Source: an alpha proteobacterium AAP38
GTDB taxonomy: Bacteria > Pseudomonadota > Alphaproteobacteria > Azospirillales > Azospirillaceae
Reading direction: 5' to 3'
NCBI GenBank assembly: GCA_001296005.1
Contig: LJHR01000008.1
Location: 62,001 to 126,000, forward strand
DNA: 64,000 nt
Under the pieces are notes generated by a model. That model saw only the letters and a list, made by a program, of their open reading frames with translations, ran no database searches and had not been told where the DNA came from. Positions 3,910-15,321 of this stretch are shown here, one piece after another. Position 1 is the stretch's first letter. Each line of letters begins with the position of its first letter. Made by a program: the position numbers and the translations under genes.

Positions 3910-4968
3910 TCATGCGGGCGTTGACCCTGCCGCTGCCATGTGCGTTTGCATACCCCCGGACATAGCCAGCACGGCATCCGCGACCTGTGCGCCGGACAGG
4001 AAGGCTGCTTCCATACGGCCCTGACGTATCCAATCACCGCACAGCACGATGCGGTTTCTGGTGTCGATCAGCGGTTGATCCTGGCGTACGGGATCGCTGT
4101 TGGCATGCGGCCAGTGGTGGAGGGCGGCAAAGCGGGGCCGCAGCGGATGCCTCCATAGATCGGACAGCGCCTGTAACAGCGCGTCTTGGATATCCGCAGG
4201 GGGCCGGTCCTGCTGGACATCGGCCCAGGCATTGGCCGACAGGGCGAGAATGCCGGGCGGTCCCTGATGTCCCGGCCTTGACCCGGTGACGGAAACCCAG
4301 CTGATCGGCGCATCCTTCACCAGGGCAGCGTCAAACCCCGGATCGACAGGATTGTCCAGACCCACCATCAGGGCGTAACAGGATTTCATCATTGTCGCAC
4401 CGGCATGGGGGCGCAGAACGCTGTCGGCAGGCAGCAGATGCCGGGCCGCCGGCGCCGGCAGGGCCAGGATGACAAGGCCGAACGGTCCCTGATCAGGGCC
4501 ATCATTCAGGGTCAGCCAGGTGCTACCCATGGCCCGCCGCAGACCAGTGACGCGGCACCCCAGGCGCAGATCAAGGCCCGCCGACCAGGCGGCAGCGATG
4601 CTATCCATGCCGCCGGTCCCGACATAATGGCCGGGGGAGTCTGTCCATTGCCGGCGCGCGGTGATGGCACCATCCCGCACTTCCACGAACCGCGCGTGCC
4701 AGGGGGTGGCAAGCCCCTGTTCTTCCAACTGCCGCACCGCCGCCGTGAACCGGGGATGACGTGGCTTGAAGAACTGTGCGCCATGATCAAAGGTATGATC
4801 ACCGATCCGCCGCGTAGCCAGCCGCCCCCCGGCAACCGACGCAGCCTCGAACAGGGCAGTCGGCAGGTGCGGCGATAACAGACGCGCCGCCGTCAGACCC
4901 GCGACACCAGCGCCGATGATGGCGACAGGCTGTCCTTCATCCAAGGCCGTCCTGCACTTATCCGGCAC
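3910..4968 (-). CDS. FAD/NAD(P)-dependent oxidoreductase, renalase-like amine oxidase
   Basis: 352 residues. The N-terminal dinucleotide-binding motif is GAGVAGLTAA near residues 18-27, followed by an acidic strand end (ALFEAA) and the GGRLATRR motif characteristic of the renalase/amine-oxidase group; a FDHGAQFF segment follows. The C-terminal flavin motif reads VLCGDWI..GRMEAAFLSGAQVADAV. Substrate unknown. It lies 96 bases downstream of the cyanophycinase-like gene on the same strand and could be read through from it, but nothing ties it functionally to that cluster. Confidence 0.85.
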   Translation of the reverse strand: MPDKCRTALDEGQPVAIIGAGVAGLTAARLLSPHLPTALFEAASVAGGRLATRRIGDHTFDHGAQFFKPRHPRFTAAVRQLEEQGLATPWHARFVEVRDGAITARRQWTDSPGHYVGTGGMDSIAAAWSAGLDLRLGCRVTGLRRAMGSTWLTLNDGPDQGPFGLVILALPAPAARHLLPADSVLRPHAGATMMKSCYALMVGLDNPVDPGFDAALVKDAPISWVSVTGSRPGHQGPPGILALSANAWADVQQDRPPADIQDALLQALSDLWRHPLRPRFAALHHWPHANSDPVRQDQPLIDTRNRIVLCGDWIRQGRMEAAFLSGAQVADAVLAMSGGMQTHMAAAGSTPA

Positions 4969-5064
4969 TTTGTCCCTCCCCTGCCCGTACAGCCATCCCC
5001 GAAGAAGATGGGGCGTTGCGGCACGGGGGCCAGCCCATGACCGGAGAGCGTGGGCATCATCAGG

Positions 5065-6276
5065 TCAGGGGCGGAGGGGCCTGAACAGGGGATCGGCCAT
5101 GCGAACGGGGGTGATGTCCATGGTGAGGTTCAGGACCGTAATGCCATCACCGGCCCAGCCCCGGCTATCGGCGCGGCGGGTCAGCAGCATGCGGAAGGCC
5201 GGGCGGCGGGCGGGGTCGGCGGCATCAAAGGCCAGACCCGTGGCTTCTCCCTTCCGGCTTTCCAGGACCTGCGCCATCAGCCGACCGAATTGCCAGGGGG
5301 CCAGGATATCGCCCGTGGCCAGGGTCGCGGGCAATTCGGGATCGGGTTCGAAACCGGGGTAGGCCGGCAGGATGGGGGCATCGGCGCGCGCGGGGCCGGG
5401 GGTCACGGTACCGCTGGCCAGGTCCAGCCGGTCGCCGTCGCGCAGCAGGGACAGGACAATCCCCGTCTGTGCAAAGGGCCAGCCGGGGGAGCGGCGGGCG
5501 GGCCGCGTATCGATCACCACCACCCCGCTGGCGCCCACCACCTCCGCCATCTTGCGTTCGCGGATGATGAGGGCGGTGTTTTCATCCACACCCAGTCCAC
5601 GCTTATAGCCGGCGGTATCCATGGCTACCAGGGTGCGGGCAAAGCGGCCGCGCGCCAGGAAATGCTGATCGACGAACCAGTCGGGACCGATGAAGCCCAG
5701 GCCCGGCCCCAGGGTCCGGCCCGCGACGGGACCGGTGGCCAGCAGGTCCAGCGTTTCCGGTGCATCCTTGATCATGGTGGCGGACATGATGGCAGCCCCC
5801 GCGGACGATCCGGCAATGACGGCCCCGCCGGCATGGGCCGCGCGGATGGCGGCCAGCAGCGGCGTGTCGGACCCGTCGGGGCCAAGCAGGACGGCGGTGT
5901 AGCGCGACTGATCACCCCCCACCAGGAAGAAGCCCCCGGCATGGCGGGCTCGGTCGATCCAGACGGGATCGGTCACGATATCCGCCGGGCTACGCACAAA
6001 GCCCTTTTCGGCCAGCGGCAGCAGCAAGGCGTCGGCCCCCAGGCCGCGCAGATGGTCCACGATGCGACCGCCGCTGCCCACCGGATCCCCGCTGCCGGTG
6101 GGCAGGACCAGAATCGTGGCGCCCTTGCCGCCCGCTAATTCCACCAGCCGGGGCCAGCCCGGATTATCCATCCGGAAATCCCCACCCGCGATCAGCAGCG
6201 ATCCCTTCACGGGTTCCGCCAGGGTCGGCAGGGTCGTGAGCAGAAAGGCGAGCAGACACAGGAACAGGCGGCGCAT
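5065..6276 (-). CDS. Exported cyanophycinase-like S51-clan serine peptidase
   Basis: 403 residues from ATG 6276, chosen because a clear signal peptide begins there (basic MRR, hydrophobic core, cleavage about residue 20 after TLA). Cyanophycinase cuts the Asp-Arg polymer cyanophycin to beta-Asp-Arg dipeptides. Visible signatures are the nucleophile elbow GSSAG at residues 156-160 (Ser158), a conserved DQHF followed by GRFARTL, and GVDENTALII. Intracellular CphB is about 270 residues; the signal peptide and about 110 extra C-terminal residues resemble extracellular CphE-type enzymes. It ends a minus-strand array with a TonB receptor, ABC transporter and M14 amidohydrolase. Another S51-type peptidase activity cannot be excluded. 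Confidence 0.85.
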   Translation of the reverse strand: MRRLFLCLLAFLLTTLPTLAEPVKGSLLIAGGDFRMDNPGWPRLVELAGGKGATILVLPTGSGDPVGSGGRIVDHLRGLGADALLLPLAEKGFVRSPADIVTDPVWIDRARHAGGFFLVGGDQSRYTAVLLGPDGSDTPLLAAIRAAHAGGAVIAGSSAGAAIMSATMIKDAPETLDLLATGPVAGRTLGPGLGFIGPDWFVDQHFLARGRFARTLVAMDTAGYKRGLGVDENTALIIRERKMAEVVGASGVVVIDTRPARRSPGWPFAQTGIVLSLLRDGDRLDLASGTVTPGPARADAPILPAYPGFEPDPELPATLATGDILAPWQFGRLMAQVLESRKGEATGLAFDAADPARRPAFRMLLTRRADSRGWAGDGITVLNLTMDITPVRMADPLFRPLRP

Positions 6277-6365
6277 GGGAACATCCCGGCAGGGGGTGAA
6301 AACAAGGGCGGTCTTGCGGGAAATGTGCCCCTCCCGCAAGACCGCAACAGCGCTCAACCGCCAGA

Positions 6366-9300
6366 TCAGAAGACCAGACGGGTGCGCAGATAGTAGGACC
6401 GTCCGATGGCCGATGCTGGGCGGCCGATATCGCCATAGAACTGGCCCTTGTTGGTCAGGTTGTTGACGCCGGCGGTCACCCGCACCTCTTCCGTCACCTG
6501 ATACGATACGGTCGCGTCATGCACCCAGGCAGCGGGCGCATAGGCCTGGACAAAGGTGCTGGCCGTTTCCGTTTCCACGCCCGTCAGGGTCTGGCGCGAC
6601 TGGTAGAAGCCGTACCAGGCAACACTCCAGACATCATCGCTCCACGATACCGACGGGTTAAGGTTCCATTCCGGGAACAGACGCTCGCCCAGGGCATTGT
6701 TGGCGGCAGCGGCGTTGCTGGGCGTCTGGAAGGTACGGTTCTTTTCGTTCCACGTCCCGGTCAGGCCAAGGGTGACGCGGCCATTCTCGCCTAAGCCGAT
6801 CTCTTCCAGGTCCACGGGGTAGACCAGATCGAAGTCAATACCGCTGGCTTCGAACCGGGCGAAGTTGATGGTCGTCTGGTTCAGCGAGTTGACAGCCAGG
6901 AAAGTGGGCGAGGTGCTGGTGCGGTTACGGCCCACCTGGGAGCAGAAGGGATTGTCCCGGCTGGGCGCGTCATAGCAGGCGTTCAGAATGTTCTGGCCCG
7001 TCACCTGGCTGATCGCATCCTCGATCTTGATGTTCCAGTAATCGACGGCCAGGGAGAAGCGCGGCAGGAAGCTGGGCGTCAGCACCACACCGGCGGTGTA
7101 GCTGGTGGAGGTTTCCGGGTCCAGATCCGGGTTGCCGCCCGTGAAGCCCGGTACACGGGCGGTACGGGTGTCCAGCCAGCCATTGGGGATGCCGTCCGCG
7201 GCGCAGTTAGCGCGGCGGTTGGCGGGACTCGGGCCGGTACCGATCTGACCGGCATCGCAGGGATCGACGACGGAGAACAGGGTGGACGAGCGGGGCGCGA
7301 ACAGTTCCTGGATATTAGGGGCACGGATGGTGCGGGAGTAACCGCCGCGAGCGCGGATATCCTTAACCGGGGCATAGACGCCACCGACCTTCCAGGTGTT
7401 CACGCCACCGACCGTGCTGTAATCGCCATAACGATAGGCACCGTCCAGCGACAGCAGCTCCACCCCCGGCAGGTCGGCCAGCAGCGGGGCGTTCAGTTCG
7501 ACAAAGCCCTCGGTGACGTCAAAGCCGCCAACCACATTCTGGCGGCCGCCACGGTCGGTATAGTTCAGGCGTTCCCATTCGGTGACTTCAAACCGGCTGT
7601 CCTCCTTGCGGTGTTCCAGGCCGGCGGCAAAGCCGATGGGACCGCCGGGCAGCGACAGGGTTTCGCCCAGATCCCCGGTGATGCTGGCGTTCCAGACCTG
7701 CTGCTTGATGGTGGATTTGACGGGATTGTCATAGGTGACAAAATCCTGTGCCGCCTCTGACGGGGCGCCCAGGCCGAACAGGTTCAAGGGCTTGCACGAC
7801 CCGTCGCCGGCCTTGAACGTGTTGTAACCGGACCAGGAGAAGACCGGGAAGTCCGATACGGACGGGATAGAGGTCGGGTTCAGGTCGGAACGGCAGACGA
7901 TCTGGCCGTTGGGCGCGCGCACCGCGTCGATGGCGGCGAAGAACCGGTCGTTCAGACGGGTCGGGCGCTTGTCGGTGGCATCCGTGCGGCCATAATTGTA
8001 GGACGCCTCATAGGCCCAGCCATTGTCGAACTCACCTTCGAAGCCCAGCACGCCGCGATAGGTGTCGCGGGTATTGCGCACCACGGGATCGACCACGTCG
8101 GCATGATCGCGGGTGATGATGAACTGGTAGGTGCTGGCGAGCGCCGGTTCCGCCGCGATCTGGGCGTTGGCGATGTCGCGCAGCTGCTGCGGGATAAAGG
8201 GGTTGTCCAGCTTGATGCGGATGCTGTCGTCGAAGGTGCGCACACTTTCGACCTGACGGCTGGTATTGCGGACGTACTTGGCCTCGACGAACGGCTTGAA
8301 ATAGGGGTTCACCTCATAACGGGCGTTCAAGTTGGCCGTCTGGGTGGACAGGTCGCCGACCAGGGTGGCGCGGTCCAGATAGTCGGGCGTACCGTCGCCG
8401 CCGAACTGGTCATTATTGGCCAGGATACCATCCTGGAACGGACGCAGCTTGCCCGTGGCCGGATCGATGACCAGACAGCCATAGCCACGGCGGCCCGGAT
8501 AATTCTGAACACAGTCGCGGGTGCCGTTATTGTCCAGGTCGATATTGGGCGCGCGGCTGTTGGTGCCGGACACGGGGAAACCCGTGCCACGCGGGTCAAA
8601 GCCGATGATGCCGTAGATCGATGACAGGCCGAAACGCTGGTTGGTGCCGAAGGCGCGGGCCTTGGCGTTCGTGGCGCGGGCGATCAGCGTCTGGCCGGCA
8701 ATGGCCTGGTTGGCAGTGGACAGGGACAGGATGCGCGTGCCGGCGGTGACGCCTGCAGCGCGCAGCGCAGGGGTCAGGTCTGTTTCCTGAAGGAACAGGT
8801 CGGGGTTGGCCGTGTCGTCGGCGATGCCGTTGCCGCGCGACCATTTGCGGTCACCAAATCCCAACGGCTTCTGATCCACCGACGACAGCGACAGGGTGAT
8901 GTTGCCCTTGCCGTCATCAAAATTGCGGCCGATGGTGGCCGCGACATAGCGGCGGTCGGCATCACCCTTTTCCGACAGGCCATATTGGGCGGTGATGTCC
9001 TGGCCCTCGAAATCCTTCTTCAGGACAAAGTTCACCACACCGGTCACAGCGTCGGAACCATAGACGGCGGAGGCACCGCCGGTCAGCACATCGACCCGTT
9101 CGACCAGGGCCGACGGGATGGTGGAGATATCCACCGACGCCTCACCGGCAATGCCGGCCACATGGCGGCGGCCATTGACCAGCACCAGGGTGCGGGCCGC
9201 CCCCAGACCGCGCAGATTGGCCGTCGGCACGGGCGAGGCCGAGGAAAGCTGGTCGGACGACCGGGTGTTCTGCAGGGCTGGCAGGCGGCTCAACGCATCG

Positions 9301-9497
9301 GAGATGCTGGTGATGCCGCGCGCCGACAGTTCCGCCTCTCCCAGCGCCGTGACGGGGACGGGGCTCTGTTCGGCGGGGCGCGCGATGCGCGATCCCGTCA
9401 CGACAATCTCTTCCAGAAGGCCGCTATCCTGCGCGATGGCGGGGCCGGCCAGCAGGGCCAGCGCGGTGGTGGTGGCCAGCAGATGCTTGGTGTTCAT
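6366..9497 (-). CDS. TonB-dependent outer-membrane receptor
   Basis: 1043 residues from ATG 9497; GAGGGA sits at good spacing upstream. Signal peptide MNTKHLLATTTALALLAGPAIA, then a TonB-box-like EEIVVTGSRI, the plug domain (DALSRLPALQNTRSS, LRGLGAARTLVLVNGRR, VDVLTGGASAVYGSDAVTGVVNF) and a long beta-barrel ending in a terminal Phe (YYLRTRLVF). The size and plug type match receptors for large organic substrates as much as siderophores. Position between the ABC ATPase and the exported cyanophycinase suggests it takes up the released peptide fragments; this is inference. Confidence 0.93.
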   Translation of the reverse strand: MNTKHLLATTTALALLAGPAIAQDSGLLEEIVVTGSRIARPAEQSPVPVTALGEAELSARGITSISDALSRLPALQNTRSSDQLSSASPVPTANLRGLGAARTLVLVNGRRHVAGIAGEASVDISTIPSALVERVDVLTGGASAVYGSDAVTGVVNFVLKKDFEGQDITAQYGLSEKGDADRRYVAATIGRNFDDGKGNITLSLSSVDQKPLGFGDRKWSRGNGIADDTANPDLFLQETDLTPALRAAGVTAGTRILSLSTANQAIAGQTLIARATNAKARAFGTNQRFGLSSIYGIIGFDPRGTGFPVSGTNSRAPNIDLDNNGTRDCVQNYPGRRGYGCLVIDPATGKLRPFQDGILANNDQFGGDGTPDYLDRATLVGDLSTQTANLNARYEVNPYFKPFVEAKYVRNTSRQVESVRTFDDSIRIKLDNPFIPQQLRDIANAQIAAEPALASTYQFIITRDHADVVDPVVRNTRDTYRGVLGFEGEFDNGWAYEASYNYGRTDATDKRPTRLNDRFFAAIDAVRAPNGQIVCRSDLNPTSIPSVSDFPVFSWSGYNTFKAGDGSCKPLNLFGLGAPSEAAQDFVTYDNPVKSTIKQQVWNASITGDLGETLSLPGGPIGFAAGLEHRKEDSRFEVTEWERLNYTDRGGRQNVVGGFDVTEGFVELNAPLLADLPGVELLSLDGAYRYGDYSTVGGVNTWKVGGVYAPVKDIRARGGYSRTIRAPNIQELFAPRSSTLFSVVDPCDAGQIGTGPSPANRRANCAADGIPNGWLDTRTARVPGFTGGNPDLDPETSTSYTAGVVLTPSFLPRFSLAVDYWNIKIEDAISQVTGQNILNACYDAPSRDNPFCSQVGRNRTSTSPTFLAVNSLNQTTINFARFEASGIDFDLVYPVDLEEIGLGENGRVTLGLTGTWNEKNRTFQTPSNAAAANNALGERLFPEWNLNPSVSWSDDVWSVAWYGFYQSRQTLTGVETETASTFVQAYAPAAWVHDATVSYQVTEEVRVTAGVNNLTNKGQFYGDIGRPASAIGRSYYLRTRLVF

Positions 9498-9596
9498 GGT
9501 GAAGTCCCTCAACTGAAGTCTCCCGAGTGTCTGGATGGGCCCGCCCGTTTGCCGGGTCTCGTGCCCACGATGGTTTGGGTGGCGTTTCGAATGGGT

Positions 9597-10379
9597 TCAG
9601 GCGTGGCCGGCGCGGTGCAGGCTGCTGGCCAGGAAGGTGCGCAGGCGGTCGCTCTGCGGGTTGGTCATCAGGTCGGATGGGGTTCCCTGTTCCTCGATCC
9701 GGCCCTTGTGCAGAAAGACAAGCTGGCTGCCGACATCGCGGGCGAAGGCCATTTCGTGGGTCACGACCACCATGGTCCGCCCCTCCTCGGCCAGGCCGCG
9801 CATGACGCGCAGCACCTCGCCCACCAGTTCGGGGTCAAGCGCGCTGGTCGGTTCATCGAACAGCATCACATCGGGCTCCATGGCCAGCGCGCGGGCGATG
9901 GCCACCCGCTGCTGCTCGCCCCCCGACAGGTGCGCCGGATAGGCATCGCGCCGGTGCAGGACACCGACACGGGCCAGATAATGCTCGGCCCGTTCGACCG
10001 CTTCGGCCTTGGACAGGCCGTTCACGCGGATCGGTGCCTCGATGACGTTGCGCAGCACGTTCATGTGGCCCCACAGGTTGAACTGCTGGAACACCATGGA
10101 CAGGCGCGCGCGCAGGCGGCGCAGCTGGGCCGGGTCGGCGGCGGTCAGCTCTCCGGTCCGGTCGGGCGTCAGGGCCAGACGCTCCCCCGCCACCGTCAGG
10201 CACCCGGCATGGGGCCGTTCCAGCAGGTTGAGGCAGCGCAACAGGGTGCTTTTCCCGGAACCCGACGCACCGATCAGGGCGATGACATCGCCGGCCCGCG
10301 CCTGAAGCGAGACATCGTGCAGCACATCGATGCTGCCATAGCGTTTGGCGATATTGTCGGCTTGCAGCTTGATTTCCAT
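9597..10379 (-). CDS. Polar amino acid ABC transporter ATP-binding protein (HisP-like)
   Basis: 260 residues from ATG 10379. An in-frame GTG at 10391 overlaps the upstream stop by 4 bases and is an equally possible start (264 residues). Walker A is [10 protein letters not shown]-loop FQQFN, signature LSGGEQQR, Walker [14 protein letters not shown], switch His in VVTHE. This is the HisP/GlnQ class that energises uptake of polar and basic amino acids. It is directly downstream of the amidohydrolase and two permeases on the same strand, so the hydrolase is embedded in the transporter operon. Confidence 0.93.
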
Positions 10380-10387
10380 GGGATGGC

Positions 10388-11503
10388 TCACGGGCTCAAC
10401 AGGTTGCCGGAACGGCGCAGGCGGGTGCCGGCCAGCTTGCCCAGGCGGTTGCCGGGAAAGGCCATGCGGGTGGCGATGCGAGCGAACAGCAGGCCGCCGC
10501 CCTGGCTGGCGACGGGCACCGCCTGACCGGTGACGGGATCGATGATGTCGGCCACGATCTCCCCTGCTTCTACCGCCGCACCCAACGGCCGGCGATAGAC
10601 CAGGACACCCGCCGCCGGTGCTGTCAGCGGTTCCACCGCTTCCAGCGGGGTGGGCTGACACAGGGCCGGCGGCAGGTCGGGAATGGCCCCGGTCACGGCC
10701 CCGGCATGGGTCATGAACGCCACCAGCGCGCGGGCATCACGGTCGGCCAGATCATGGTCGACATCTGCCTGACCGCGCAGTTCCACCGTCACCGACCGGC
10801 AGGAAAGCGGGATCGGATATTGCGGGAAGCGCTGCCGCAGGGCGGCCCAGGGCCGGCTGACCGCCTCGTCGAACGGATGGTCACCGCTTTCATCCGCGGT
10901 CAGCAGCGCCTGCGCCCCCAGCAGCCGGGCCAGCGGCGCCACCGCTTCGGCCAGCGGCGTCAGGGTATAGAGATGCATCACGGCCTCATGGTCGCAATGC
11001 AGGTCCAAAACCCAGTCGGCCCCGACCGCCAGCGACATCAGCAACACCTTCAGATGCTGGGCCGGCGATTGCGGGCGCATTTCCGACAGGGCATCGGCCA
11101 GGGCCACACGGATCAGGGCGGTATTGGCGGCGGGATCATCGCCCAACCGGCCCTGCACACGCGCCGCGGCGGCAGGGACCAGCCAGGGGAAATCGCGGTT
11201 GAAATTGCGCCCGTCGGTAAGGTCGAACCGGCCCAGCATGTCGCCCAGCACCGCCTGCGACAGGCCAATCGGGTTGGCAATGGGGACCAGCACCACCTCG
11301 CCCACCAGCTTGCCCTCGGCCTCCAGCCGGGTCAGGTGGCGGCGCAGTTTGTCGGCGACCAGCATGGCCGGGATTTCATCGGCATGCAGGCTGGCCTGGA
11401 TATGTATGCGGGGGCGCCCGCCGGGGGTGCCGAAGCGCTGCACCGTCACCGTACGGTGGGTGCCTTGCGTCGTGCCGGGCAGGGACAGGGTTTCAGATCG
11501 CAC
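10388..11503 (-). CDS. M14-clan zinc amidohydrolase (AstE/AspA family), CphZ-like candidate
   Basis: 371 residues from GTG 11503, chosen because AAGGAG overlaps the upstream permease stop at ideal distance; longer upstream starts would run into the permease. The succinylglutamate desuccinylase/aspartoacylase fold is indicated by zinc ligands in LHADE (His40, Glu43) and VLDLHC (His169), the substrate-binding GRNFNRDFP near residues 98-106, and the catalytic Glu241 in VTVELRG. A family of beta-Asp-Arg dipeptide hydrolases (CphZ) related to zinc carboxypeptidases has been described beside cyanophycinase genes; the context here fits that role. A plain N-acyl amino acid deacylase is the alternative. 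Confidence 0.8.
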
Positions 11504-11517
11504 GTTGGTGCCGCTCC

Positions 11518-12222
11518 TTAAGAGGCACCGGCCGGGCGCGCCAGATGCCGCAGCAGGCGGCGCTCCAGCAGCCGGAACAGGCCGGTGATGCACAGGGTCA
11601 GGGCGAGGTAGAACAGGGCCGCCGTCCCGAACGCTTCCACTGCCAACAGGCTGTTGGCATGGACGTCGCGGGCCACGCGGGTGATCTCCACCAGGGTCAC
11701 CGCGCTGGCGATGGAGGTGGCATGCATCAGCATCACCAGCTCATTGCCATATTGCGGCAGGGCGCGGCGGACGGCGCCCGGGATCAGGATGCGGGTGTAG
11801 ATGTCAAAGCCGGTTAGGCCCAGGCTCCGCGCCGCCTCCACCTCTCCTGCCGGCGTGGCGCGCAGGGCACCTGCCAGCATTTCGGTCGTATAGGCAGCGG
11901 TGTTCAGCGTGAAGGCAATCCAGGCACAGAACCAGGGTTCACGCAGCAGCGGCCACAGGCTGCTGTCCCGGACCATATCGAACTGCGCCAGCCCGAAATA
12001 GACCATGAAAAGCTGCACCAGCAGCGGCGTGCCGCGCAGCACATAGGTGAACAGGAAGACGGGCCGCGACAGAAACGGGTTGGCCGACACCCGCGCCACC
12101 GCAAGGGGCAGCGACAGGCTCAGGCCGGCAACGGCCGAGGCCAGCAGCAGCAGGATAGTGACGCGCGCACCATCCAGAAAGGCGGGCAGATTGTCCTGAA
12201 TAATCTGAAGATCGATCATCAC
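11518..12222 (-). CDS. Polar amino acid ABC transporter permease (HisM-like)
   Basis: 234 residues. Five or so membrane segments, with the RGTPLLVQLFMVYFGL motif and the cytoplasmic EAA loop (EAARSLGLTGFDIYTRILIP) that docks the ATPase. Its ATG overlaps the stop of the upstream permease by 4 bases (ATGA), and its stop overlaps the ribosome-binding site of the amidohydrolase. Works as one half of the heterodimeric membrane channel with the 12219-12905 product. Confidence 0.92.
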   Translation of the reverse strand: MMIDLQIIQDNLPAFLDGARVTILLLLASAVAGLSLSLPLAVARVSANPFLSRPVFLFTYVLRGTPLLVQLFMVYFGLAQFDMVRDSSLWPLLREPWFCAWIAFTLNTAAYTTEMLAGALRATPAGEVEAARSLGLTGFDIYTRILIPGAVRRALPQYGNELVMLMHATSIASAVTLVEITRVARDVHANSLLAVEAFGTAALFYLALTLCITGLFRLLERRLLRHLARPAGAS

Positions 12223-12905
12223 AGCACCGCCTTGCGAACGCCGAGGGACACGCGCTTTTCAAGTTGGCCCAGCGCCAGGATCGAGACGGTGGTGACAACC
12301 AGATAGAGGACGGCGACGGCGGCATAGAAGGTGAAGGGCTGGGCGGTCGCGGCGGTGGCCAGGCTGGCGCGGTGGACCATGTCGTCCAGGCCGATGATCG
12401 ACACCAGGGCCGAGGCCTTGACCATGACCAGCCAGTTATTTGCAAAGCCGGGGATGGCGTGGCGGATCATCTGCGGCAGGGTGATGTGCCAGAGGACCTG
12501 TACCCCGCTCATGCCATAGGCCAGGCCCGCCTCCGCCTGCCCCTTGGGGATGGCCATGAAGGCGCCGCGGAAGGTTTCCGTCAGATAGGCACCATAGATG
12601 AAGCCCAGGGTCAGGCTGCCGGCCAGGAACGGATCGATATCGATATAATCCCAGCCCAGACGCAGGCCGATATCATTGACCAGCGCCTGCCCGCCATAGA
12701 ACAGGGCCAGCATCAGCACCAGATCGGGGATGGAGCGGATCAGCGTGGTGTAGGCCCCTGCCACCGCCTGCAACCCGCGCCCCGTGGACAGCTTGGCCAG
12801 GGCGCCGGCCAGACCGAACAGCGAGGCGATGGCCAGTGAGACCAGCGACACCGACAATGTCGTCAGCAAGCCGTCAAGCAGGATGGGCAGATACTCGATC
12901 AGCAT
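12219..12905 (-). CDS. Polar amino acid ABC transporter permease (HisQ-like)
   Basis: 228 residues from ATG 12905, preferred because MLIEYLPILLDGLLTTL aligns with the usual HisQ start; ATG 12911 and GTG 12926 are alternatives and no start has a convincing Shine-Dalgarno. Contains the permease motif IRSIPDLVLMLALFYGG and EAA loop EAGLAYGMSGVQVLWHITLP. A 104-base gap with GC-rich inverted repeats separates it from the binding-protein gene, which may allow differential expression of binder and membrane parts. Confidence 0.9.
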   Translation of the reverse strand: MLIEYLPILLDGLLTTLSVSLVSLAIASLFGLAGALAKLSTGRGLQAVAGAYTTLIRSIPDLVLMLALFYGGQALVNDIGLRLGWDYIDIDPFLAGSLTLGFIYGAYLTETFRGAFMAIPKGQAEAGLAYGMSGVQVLWHITLPQMIRHAIPGFANNWLVMVKASALVSIIGLDDMVHRASLATAATAQPFTFYAAVAVLYLVVTTVSILALGQLEKRVSLGVRKAVL

Positions 12906-13009
12906 GGGCATGCAACCGGGGTTCACCCCCGGCGGTACCGGGGGTGGGGGGGGAAGGTCTGGGGTGAAAGCGGCGGGGCGGGGTCCGAGCGGGCGGGCCG
13001 CCCTATTCC

Positions 13010-13789
13010 TCAGGAATTCCCGCCCGAGACATCAAACGTGAAGTAGCGTTGGGCAATCTGCTGATAGCGACCGTCAGCCTTGATGGCTTTCAGGGCGGCG
13101 TTGATCCGGTCGCGCAGAGCGGTATCGCCCTTGCGCACGGCAATGCCGACGTCGCTATCCCCCTTCAGGCGCAGGGGTTCACCCACGGTGGCGAACCCAG
13201 CGCCCTCGGGCCGCTTCAGGAACAGTCCCTCCGCGATCACCGATGAACCGAGTGCGATATCCCCGCGCCCTGCGCGCAGTTCCAGGTAGACATCCGTCTC
13301 CTTGGCGACCAGCAGCAGGCGGCTGTCGGGGTATTTTTCCTTGGCATGTTTGGCACGCGGACTGTTACGCAGGACGATAATCGTCTTGCCCTTCAGCGCG
13401 TCGGGCGTAGGCTCCGTAAAGGCGCCCTGTCTGGCGATCCAGCGGGAGGGGACATCATAATAGACATCGGAGAAATCGACGATTTTCGCCCGGTCCGCCG
13501 TGATCGTCATGGAGGCGACGATCATGTCGAACTTGCGGGTGTTGAGCGCCGGGATCATCCCGTCCCATTCCTGTTGTACCAGGGTGCAGTCGACCTTCAT
13601 TTCCGCGCACAGCGCATTGGCAATGTCGATATCAAAACCCGACAGTTTCCCGTCCGGCCCGATCACCGAAAAGGGCGGATAATTGCCCTCCACCCCCACC
13701 CGCATGCGGGCGTTCTGCGCATCGGCAGATGTGGTCAGAAGCAACAGACTTGCGGCAAGACCCGCCGTCAGGGACATAAGACGCATCAT
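13010..13789 (-). CDS. Periplasmic amino-acid-type substrate-binding protein (HisJ/ArgT-like)
   Basis: 259 residues from ATG 13789, with GGAAG nine bases upstream. Signal peptide with cleavage near ADA-Q, then the family 3 solute-binding fold: MRVGVEGNYPPFSVIGPDGKLSGFDIDIANALC, MIPALNTRKFDMIVASMTIT and a C-terminal DGRYQQIAQRYFTFD. HisJ-type binders take Arg, Lys, Orn or His. In this cluster the ligand could be arginine or the beta-Asp-Arg dipeptide; the sequence does not decide. First gene of the operon, divergent from the RpiR regulator. Confidence 0.92.
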   Translation of the reverse strand: MMRLMSLTAGLAASLLLLTTSADAQNARMRVGVEGNYPPFSVIGPDGKLSGFDIDIANALCAEMKVDCTLVQQEWDGMIPALNTRKFDMIVASMTITADRAKIVDFSDVYYDVPSRWIARQGAFTEPTPDALKGKTIIVLRNSPRAKHAKEKYPDSRLLLVAKETDVYLELRAGRGDIALGSSVIAEGLFLKRPEGAGFATVGEPLRLKGDSDVGIAVRKGDTALRDRINAALKAIKADGRYQQIAQRYFTFDVSGGNS

Positions 13790-13851
13790 GGCAACTGGCT
13801 TCCGGCAGGTTTCGCAATGATCGGCTCGATGGAATGGACAATGACACGTTA

Positions 13852-13876
13852 TTTTCATAAGATCAATCTATGAAAA
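13852..13876. promoter_or_regulatory. Palindrome in the SBP/RpiR divergent region, candidate operator
   Basis: Perfect inverted repeat TTTTCATA-N9-TATGAAAA. Its right arm contains the ATG (13870) of the regulator gene, and it lies 63 bases upstream of the binding-protein start. No Shine-Dalgarno is seen before 13870. Position suggests binding by the adjacent MurR/RpiR protein, repressing itself and the transport operon. Confidence 0.5.
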
Positions 13877-14814
13877 AATCCTCTCAGGCTGATTTTCACG
13901 CTCCGGGCCAGGGCGACGCGCAAACTCAATCCGCCCCGTCGACGGAGGTGGCCTTTGCAGACACCGAACTGGGCCGCCGGCTGCTGGCAGTGATGGCGGA
14001 TGGGACGGCGTCCAATCGGACGATTGCGGAGCATCTGCTGCGCAATCCCGTGCGGATCACGGCGTGGAGCATTGAGGATCTGGCCAGTGCCATCGGCGTG
14101 TCGAACGCCACCTTGAGCCGGTTTGCGCGGGCCGTGGGCTATGCTGGCTATCCCGACCTGCGGGCGGGCATGGCGGAGACGTTGCAGACGGTGCTGCGTC
14201 CCGTTGAAAAACTGCGCAGCAGCTTCGACCGCGCCGACCCGACCCAGGCCGCCATTAATGAGGGGCTGGAGGCGACGCTGTCGCATCTGTCGCGGGTGGC
14301 GGAGCAGATGGCGGGCGGCACACAGCTGTCAGAACTGGTCAGCCGGCTGAACGCGGCGCGCACCATCTATGTCATGGGTTTCGGCCTGTCGGCCCATGTC
14401 GCGGGGCTGCTGACCCTGGGGTTGCAGCCCTTCTGCGCCAATCTGGTCAATGTCGTGGAATTTGGCGGTACCGAGGTCGCGGCGGGGCGGCTAATGAATT
14501 TGGGCGAAGGCGATGTGCTGATCGCCATCGCCTTTCCCCGCTACGCACAGGCAGCATTGCACCTGACCAGCTTTGCCAAATCGCGCAGGGCGCATGTGGT
14601 GGCCATCACCGACAGCCCCGTATCGCCCCTGGCGCAACGGGCGGATACGGTGCTGCTGGCCGAAAGCACGCATCCCGTCCTGTCCAGCAGCATGACGGCG
14701 GCGGTGCTGATGGCGGAAACGCTGGTCACCGCCATGATGCTGTCCAACCGGGACAATGTCGCCCACGCGGAAAGCCTGACCGACGCGATATCCAGCTATC
14801 TGCATAATCCGTAA
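13870..14814 (+). CDS. MurR/RpiR family transcriptional regulator
   Basis: 314 residues. An N-terminal helix-turn-helix of the HTH_6 type (NRTIAEHLLRNPVRITAWSIEDLASAIGVSNATLSRFARAVGY, about residues 50-95) is followed by a SIS domain (about 150-290) with IYVMGFGLSAH and DVLIAIAFPRYAQ. SIS domains bind phosphosugars in most relatives, but several RpiR proteins beside amino acid loci sense other ligands. Divergent from the transporter operon, separated by 80 bases, with a palindrome over its own start codon, so it is the likely regulator of the cluster. No ribosome-binding site is visible, so leaderless or weak translation is possible. Confidence 0.9.
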   Translation: MKKSSQADFHAPGQGDAQTQSAPSTEVAFADTELGRRLLAVMADGTASNRTIAEHLLRNPVRITAWSIEDLASAIGVSNATLSRFARAVGYAGYPDLRAGMAETLQTVLRPVEKLRSSFDRADPTQAAINEGLEATLSHLSRVAEQMAGGTQLSELVSRLNAARTIYVMGFGLSAHVAGLLTLGLQPFCANLVNVVEFGGTEVAAGRLMNLGEGDVLIAIAFPRYAQAALHLTSFAKSRRAHVVAITDSPVSPLAQRADTVLLAESTHPVLSSSMTAAVLMAETLVTAMMLSNRDNVAHAESLTDAISSYLHNP

Positions 14815-14829
14815 AAGGGCGGCCCGCTG

Positions 14830-15234
14830 TCAGCCCGGATGTGCTGCCGCCCAGCGGCCATTCTGTGTCCGGCCACCATAGCCATAGGCATCGCCATTGG
14901 TTTCATGGACATAGACGTAGCATTCCGAGTGTAGCGGCCCCAGAAGGTCCGCCATTTCCCGATAGGCCGCCTTTACGAACGCGGTGGTTTCCGCCTTGGT
15001 ATTGGTGCCCGCCGTCACCTTGATATCCAGCCAGAAGGCCGACAATCCGTCATCGGTGGGCCGTTTGCCGGCGATGAACCAGCCATCGGGGTCCGCCGGC
15101 TCCACCAGCACCGCCGTCACGCCAGGGTCCTTGCCCAGCTTTTCCGCCCCAAGCCGGGCAGCCAATCCGGCGATCCGGGCGCGCAGGTCGGGGCGTGGGT
15201 CGGGCGTTACATAGCGCACAATGATCATGGGCAT
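14830..15234 (-). CDS. Tautomerase family protein
   Basis: 134 residues from ATG 15234, preceded by GGAG. This start puts Pro directly after Met (MPMIIVRYV), giving the N-terminal catalytic proline of the 4-oxalocrotonate tautomerase superfamily after Met removal; the GTG at 15237 would not. It is about twice the 62-residue 4-OT unit. Substrate unknown. Divergent from the LysR regulator at 15330, with an inverted repeat between them. Confidence 0.75.
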   Translation of the reverse strand: MPMIIVRYVTPDPRPDLRARIAGLAARLGAEKLGKDPGVTAVLVEPADPDGWFIAGKRPTDDGLSAFWLDIKVTAGTNTKAETTAFVKAAYREMADLLGPLHSECYVYVHETNGDAYGYGGRTQNGRWAAAHPG

Positions 15235-15294
15235 CACACATCTCCTGTTGGGGTTGGATGCCCATTTCTGCCCTTTTGAAATTCACTCGTGAAC

Positions 15295-15321
15295 GCTATG
15301 ATATTTGATAATTACCATAGC
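15295..15321. promoter_or_regulatory. Inverted repeat between tautomerase and LysR genes
   Basis: GCTATG-N15-CATAGC in an AT-rich 95-base divergent intergenic region, ending 9 bases before the LysR ATG. Size and place fit a LysR-type recognition site for the adjacent regulator. The inner 15 bases are AT-rich. Confidence 0.4.

Follow-up and report, generated by a model that had tools for sequence, protein, structure and literature searches.

Cyanophycin is a nitrogen-rich polymer that is freed when cyanobacteria die. The locus described here raises the question of whether a bacterium that does not produce the polymer can feed on it, and on which side of the outer membrane the chains would be cut. 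It lies in the window, the whole 64,000-nucleotide stretch of DNA that was analysed; the genome amounts to 5.78 Mb in 62 contigs. The organism is akin to Niveispirillum and falls in the same genus (g1) as Niveispirillum lacus. A first-pass annotation had described eight genes, seven of them on the minus strand and a divergent one for an RpiR regulator. All eight were found where it had placed them, and Pfam and NCBIfam bear out the domains that it had assigned (S51, TonB receptor, ABC components, AstE/AspA-type hydrolase, and RpiR). The minus-strand genes are ordered HisJ, HisQ, HisM, CphZ-type hydrolase, HisP, TonB-dependent receptor (TBDT), and CphE-type cyanophycinase, with rpiR divergent from them (Table 1). 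HisQ and HisM overlap, and fewer than 20 bases separate HisM from CphZ and CphZ from HisP. Gaps of about 80-105 bases, counted from the chosen starts, lie between HisJ and HisQ, between HisP and the receptor, and between the receptor and cphE. The likely start codons were picked by eye and differ from the raw ORF ends.

Table 1. Genes and sequence elements of the putative cyanophycin-scavenging locus, in positions of the window.
Feature	Position	Strand	Remarks
cphE-type cyanophycinase, 403 aa	5065..6276	-	ATG 6276 (ORF to 6357); S51 domain and C-terminal part of ~120 aa
Hairpin with T-rich tail, between TBDT and cphE	6308..6345	-	stem prediction, z -4.35
TonB-dependent receptor (TBDT)	6366..9497	-	ATG 9497 (ORF to 9512); PF07715 (Plug), PF00593 (barrel)
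HisP-type ABC ATPase	9597..10379	-	ATG 10379; NF007908 378.5 bits, below cut-off of 466
CphZ-type AstE/AspA hydrolase	10388..11503	-	GTG 11503 (ORF to 11593); PF24827; PDB 8ein 290.8 bits
HisM-type permease	11518..12222	-	Pfam/NCBIfam domains
HisQ-type permease	12219..12926	-	Pfam/NCBIfam domains
HisJ/LAO-type binding protein, apparent signal peptide	13010..13789	-	ATG ~13777-13789, not 13858 (ORF to 13858)
Inverted repeat TTTTCAT-N11-ATGAAAA, candidate RpiR operator	13852..13876	.	overlaps rpiR start codon
RpiR-family regulator	13870..14814	+	HTH_6 and SIS

Downstream of cphE, on the same strand, there is an FAD-dependent amine-oxidase-like gene (PF01593, 3910-4968). It likewise comes after cphE in three relatives (G068, N. 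lacus, and a bloom MAG), although the next gene along differs in N. lacus. This FAD oxidoreductase was considered as a member of the pathway and rejected, since it was not found beside cphE in a pond MAG (G074).

The S51 protein scores above the curated cut-off for cyanophycinases (TIGR02069, 137.9 bits against 126.6) and above that of the S51 family (PF03575, 29.8 against 23.9), and it carries the GSSAG, DQHF, and DENTA motifs that had been ascribed to it. Nine key residues of CphB (3en0), Q101, S132, D172, Q173, H174, R178, R180, R183, and E201, are all identical in the window protein. Gln101, Ser132, Asp172, Gln173, Arg178, Arg180, and Arg183 of CphB and a Ser-His-Glu triad of CphEal are named in the available text of PMC3235067; H174 and E201 are our own equivalents of the His and Glu of CphEal. 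The nine residues do not prove that the window enzyme is active, since the pseudo-CphB structure 7uqv, its best structural match, keeps the same nine. An AlphaFold model of CphE, made with 14 sequences as input, has a pLDDT of 91.1. Foldseek returned 15 matches to this model at E <= 0.001, namely nine cyanophycinase or pseudo-CphB chains, five peptidase E chains, and 6nqc, titled as a peptidase from an acI-B1 actinobacterium. No Foldseek match could be assigned to the C-terminal part. The CphE enzymes of Pseudomonas anguilliseptica BI and P. alcaligenes DIP1 resemble the window enzyme, whose own Sec-type signal is an apparent one, in signal type, in a length of about 400-420 aa, and in the triad, and the substrate arginines, whereas CphEal has Asp-Thr-His in place of Asp-Gln-His (available text of PMC3235067). 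Among 72,556 plasmid records, no match to cphE was found at 1e-15.

The bacterium does not appear to make cyanophycin itself. The absence of cphA had been noted for the window, and it extends to the whole genome (5.8 Mb), in which no CphA over the cut-off was found. The best TIGR02068 match is partial, with 49.9 bits against a cut-off of 850; it is one of 13 partial matches, none of them at E <= 1e-60. Among 82 genomes of the family, two (G001 and G067) pass the curated cut-off for CphA; in 44 others the matches at E <= 1e-60 are all partial, and the present genome is not one of these. A TIGR02069 match at 1e-10 is found in nine of the 82. Seven of the nine were classed as CphE type (the present genome, G055, G067, G068, G070, G072, and G074); as for the other two, G001 has a CphB-like protein beside its CphA, and the match of G052 is weak.

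The linkage, which was to be looked for in relatives, is conserved in them. The same eight-gene order is present in G068 and in N. lacus 1-14 (G070, NZ_NOXU01000032.1), and the arrangement is thus not due to chance. The locus is split over contigs in G072 and G074, and no CphZ of the window type was found in G074. Aerophototrophica crusticola (G067, MOEB01000030.1; grouped in g1) and G055 possess the receptor and CphE with no ABC module there. In G053, from a different genus, RpiR, HisJ, HisQ, HisM, and CphZ stand beside an arginase and a class-III aminotransferase; the contig breaks off within CphZ, and no cyanophycinase match was found in the genome. G052 has a relative of CphZ and its weak S51 match, without a receptor of the window group. 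The locus is best read as two putative modules, one of receptor and cyanophycinase and the other of RpiR, HisJ/Q/M, and CphZ. Caenispirillum bisanense has HisP, HisJ, HisQ, HisM, CphE, and CphZ together in an independent cluster that also holds a class-III aminotransferase and an Lrp/AsnC regulator. No TonB receptor was found within the 21 kb examined there.

Where CphE acts can be considered from its N-terminus, which is hydrophobic after ATG 6276 when read by eye and gives an apparent Sec-type signal peptide only. The secretin GspD, the sole secretion gene sought, had no match in the whole genome; the same search gave matches in six of 14 control genomes, two of them over the cut-off. With an apparent Sec-only signal and no GspD match, digestion in the periplasm, of chains that the receptor has imported, is no poorer a fit than digestion outside, and CphE may work in the periplasm. 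The first-pass annotation had drawn a full route that begins with depolymerisation outside the cell. Of that route, scavenging by a non-producer can be kept, but the opening step is weakened. A strictly extracellular version, in which CphE is released to break down granules outside the cell and the receptor imports the resulting beta-Asp-Arg or short products, is possible though rather doubtful. A TonB receptor should be unnecessary for a dipeptide of about 290 Da, and the Caenispirillum cluster is without one in the stretch examined. The missing GspD match also counts against this version. Pseudomonas CphE, however, is extracellular, and when expressed in E. coli, a host said to be without a functional type II system and from which CphEal escaped, it reached the supernatant (available text of PMC3235067).

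The ABC transporter set is complete, with an SBP_bac_3 binding protein, two BPD permeases, and an ATPase. None of the HisJ, HisQ, HisM, and HisP models of NCBIfam reaches its cut-off for the window proteins; the general permease domain TIGR01726 is over its cut-off. At the LAO positions compared, the cph-type binding proteins have E11, Y14, T72, R77, S120, P121, and S161, with E11, Y14, and R77 of LAO kept or similar. Asp161 of LAO, which we take to be the residue that holds the alpha-amine of the ligand, is replaced by Ser in all six genomes with the cph ABC type (the window, G068, N. lacus, G074, G072, and G053). The reference LAO has Asp at this position and chain 6mla has Ala. In beta-Asp-Arg this amine is tied up in the isopeptide bond. 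The binding protein seems suited to a basic ligand whose alpha-amine is blocked. The alignment took in 29 of the 59 listed places besides the window, a second copy in G074 being left out, and these 29 comprise five proteins with the cph signature, 23 with Thr161 (22 from g3 and one from g13), and one with Asp. The Thr161 proteins of genera g3 and g13 belong to loci L144-L166. Asp161 is kept in the protein of the Caenispirillum CphE-CphZ cluster, in both proteins of G795, and in one other protein of the present genome. Loss of Asp161 as a unique mark of cph loci was rejected on account of the 23 Thr proteins and of Caenispirillum.

Judged by its matches, the hydrolase in the transporter operon is CphZ-type. 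Its best match among solved structures is 8ein (E 1.8e-85, full-length), and 8eip is also among the best; both are taken to be the CphZ cyanophycin dipeptide hydrolase. At a position where 8ein has Glu and 8eip has Ala, the window protein keeps Glu in the alignment. Seven residues, presumably those of the active site, are identical in all 37 rows of the tree, 8ein included. In this tree the window protein falls into a clade of 26 rows together with G053, G052, the g3 genomes, and Caenispirillum; the support of 90/93 is short of the star of the tree tool. Without Caenispirillum, the clade has 25 rows and support of 100/99. The known enzyme, 8ein, falls outside all other rows on a long branch, so that the window protein stands far from it, in a clade with relatives from arginase-linked places. 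Other paralogues are set apart from the window protein in the tree, among them one of the AstE/AspA type that lies at a distance of about 105 kb in the present genome and adjoins RmuC and a PALP enzyme. Four contexts of CphZ relatives (G040, G053, G030, and G052) were scanned with Pfam. The near relative in G040 is next to an arginase and a class-III aminotransferase, and that in G030 has a class-III aminotransferase nearby (one neighbour protein scanned). In G052, three neighbours were scanned and neither enzyme was found; one of the three has an Lrp/AsnC-type domain at its end. The company of arginase and class-III aminotransferase in G053 and G040 suggests that the product of the pathway is probably arginine.

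The AstE/AspA enzyme and the binding protein might instead serve another arginine conjugate or isopeptide, such as an N-acyl-arginine, an opine-like compound, or a damaged peptide. This is improbable in view of the linkage to a cyanophycinase over its cut-off in the window, the synteny in relatives, and the recurrence of the linkage in Caenispirillum, even though AstE/AspA relatives occur in 58 of the 82 family genomes, 49 of them without a TIGR02069 match, the G053 module has no cyanophycinase match, and Asp161 is lost in further binding proteins.

The closest NCBI models to the receptor are those of heme, B12, and siderophore receptors, all far below their cut-offs. The window receptor group was delimited at E <= 1e-150 in the 82 family genomes, with the best nine candidates or fewer scored per genome. 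Among these candidates, the group is present in eight genomes, the seven of CphE type and G054, so that CphE is present in seven of eight receptor-group genomes and the receptor in seven of seven CphE-type genomes; the chance of such an overlap is 2e-9 if kinship is ignored. The receptor adjoins cphE in six of the seven, and in G072 the two are on separate contigs. G054 has a relative of 46% identity with no cyanophycinase match in the genome and no S51 gene near it, and a strict tie of receptor to CphE was rejected for this one exception. With the receptor group in every CphE-type genome, adjacent to cphE in six, and with other S51-TBDT pairs elsewhere that involve distantly related receptors, it is improbable that the neighbourhood is incidental and that the receptor carries an iron chelate or other ligand, as its closest models and the G054 relative might suggest.

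Cyanophycinase loci were also surveyed more widely. A scan of genome contigs gave 15 loci, of which four (L071, L072, L074, and L075) have a receptor beside CphE, two (L073 and L076) are on short contigs, and nine, that of Caenispirillum bisanense among them, show no receptor. In a sample of the phylum, 28 of 398 genomes, the present one included, match TIGR02069 at 1e-15 in 35 places; the 33 loci taken cover all 34 places outside the present genome. Of the 33, 16 have a receptor no more than 3 kb from the S51 gene. Divided by motif, it is present in 13 of 16 loci with Asp-Thr-His (11 tallied, with L109 and L115 read from motif strings), one of nine with Asp-Gln-His, two of five with Asp-Ser-His, and none of three others, two of which are without the catalytic Ser. 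Asp-Thr-His and Asp-Gln-His loci differ in receptor linkage with a Fisher p of 0.002, kinship ignored. The profile used to find receptors was built from three sequences, and some contigs stop early; receptors may therefore have been missed in places. No receptor was seen in four loci of a class search (L127-L130), which are outside the 33.

Several of these loci have features of their own. In L108-L124, Asp-Thr-His S51 genes as a rule run divergently from a TonB receptor that is no more than a distant relative of the one in the window. L104 (G593) and L105 (G820) hold TIGR02069 matches without the catalytic serine. L107, a locus of G795 in another class of the same phylum, is a counterpart of the window locus with no receptor match. 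An OprD porin is placed between its two S51 genes, one of which has lost motif residues, and it also holds two HisJ-type proteins and an RpiR 40% identical to that of the window over 304 residues. CphE stands next to EamA-family transporters, possible uptake or export partners, in L076 (Elstera litoralis) and L127 (G244).

The inverted repeat between rpiR and HisJ is the only exact site in the genome. With one or two mismatches, 20 further places were found, against one for a reversed control pattern. The repeat is present in seven of seven divergent RpiR-HisJ regions from six genomes, including G053, where the flanks have diverged and RpiR is 56% identical to that of the window; none was found in L107 with up to three mismatches allowed. 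Both arms hold an ATG, one belonging to rpiR and the other to the long HisJ ORF, and the conservation may for that reason be partly coding. The repeat is a candidate RpiR operator. The hairpin before cphE has a stem of 14 Watson-Crick pairs, or 16 with G-T. Its 14-base arms are identical in all four genomes aligned, with a loop one base shorter in the pond MAG, and among 175 loci searched the sequence occurs only in copies of the TBDT-cphE gap. Rfam gave no match within 4900-15300. The hairpin could possibly be a terminator, an attenuator, a processing site, or an mRNA-stabilising element. It may limit transcription of cphE, and the receptor and cphE may not share one transcript.

Scavenging of cyanophycin by a non-producer is well supported by the family calls, the key residues, the conserved linkage, and the lack of CphA. 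The locus as a whole, including the proposed route from uptake to CphZ, is likely to serve this purpose. For this route, we infer the substrate and the direction of each transport step from the sequences. Soluble cyanophycin, its oligomers, or dipeptides would pass the outer membrane by way of the TonB receptor. CphE, presumably exported, would cleave the Asp backbone in the periplasm, and perhaps to some extent outside, to give beta-Asp-Arg. This dipeptide would be imported by the HisJQMP-type transporter and split to Asp and Arg by cytoplasmic CphZ. RpiR may control the divergent promoter region through the repeat and would be induced by some product.

The novelty that the first-pass annotation had seen in the addition of a TonB receptor was put too strongly. 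Besides the 16 loci above, such a pair was in print in 2012 for Citromicrobium sp. JLT1363, with the same substrate inferred; no ABC transporter, CphZ, or regulator is mentioned in the available portion of that account, unlike the window locus (PMC3400609). Nor is scavenging in a non-producer new, as PMC10206079, which cites the CphZ hydrolase as its ref. 49, describes in its available portion clusters that lack cphA1 and contain a cyanophycinase, a dipeptidase, and in many cases transporters. The clusters of Ben Hania et al., as presented in PMC10206079, resemble the window in having a cyanophycinase, a dipeptide-splitting enzyme, and a transporter with no cphA1; the window differs in that a single stretch unites a CphZ-type dipeptidase with a TonB receptor, RpiR, and the full HisJQMP set. 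The literature search found no paper on cyanophycin together with Niveispirillum and none that joins cyanophycin and RpiR. The parts are known; the complete one-stretch set, the changed binding protein, and the repeat appear to be new details as far as the search went.

Niveispirillum lacus and N. cyanobacteriorum were isolated from cyanobacterial aggregates, according to titles cited in PMC11089705. A selfish route, in which the receptor imports whole chains, digestion is periplasmic, a dedicated importer takes N-blocked arginine, and nothing leaks to neighbours, is an unlikely reading. If true, it would be an analogue of selfish polysaccharide uptake in which bacteria from cyanobacterial aggregates take up a poly(amino acid). 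Whether such a polymer can pass through a TonB receptor can be tested with this locus. With the putative pathway in one stretch of a culturable species, it becomes testable who eats cyanophycin and whether it is shared or hoarded.
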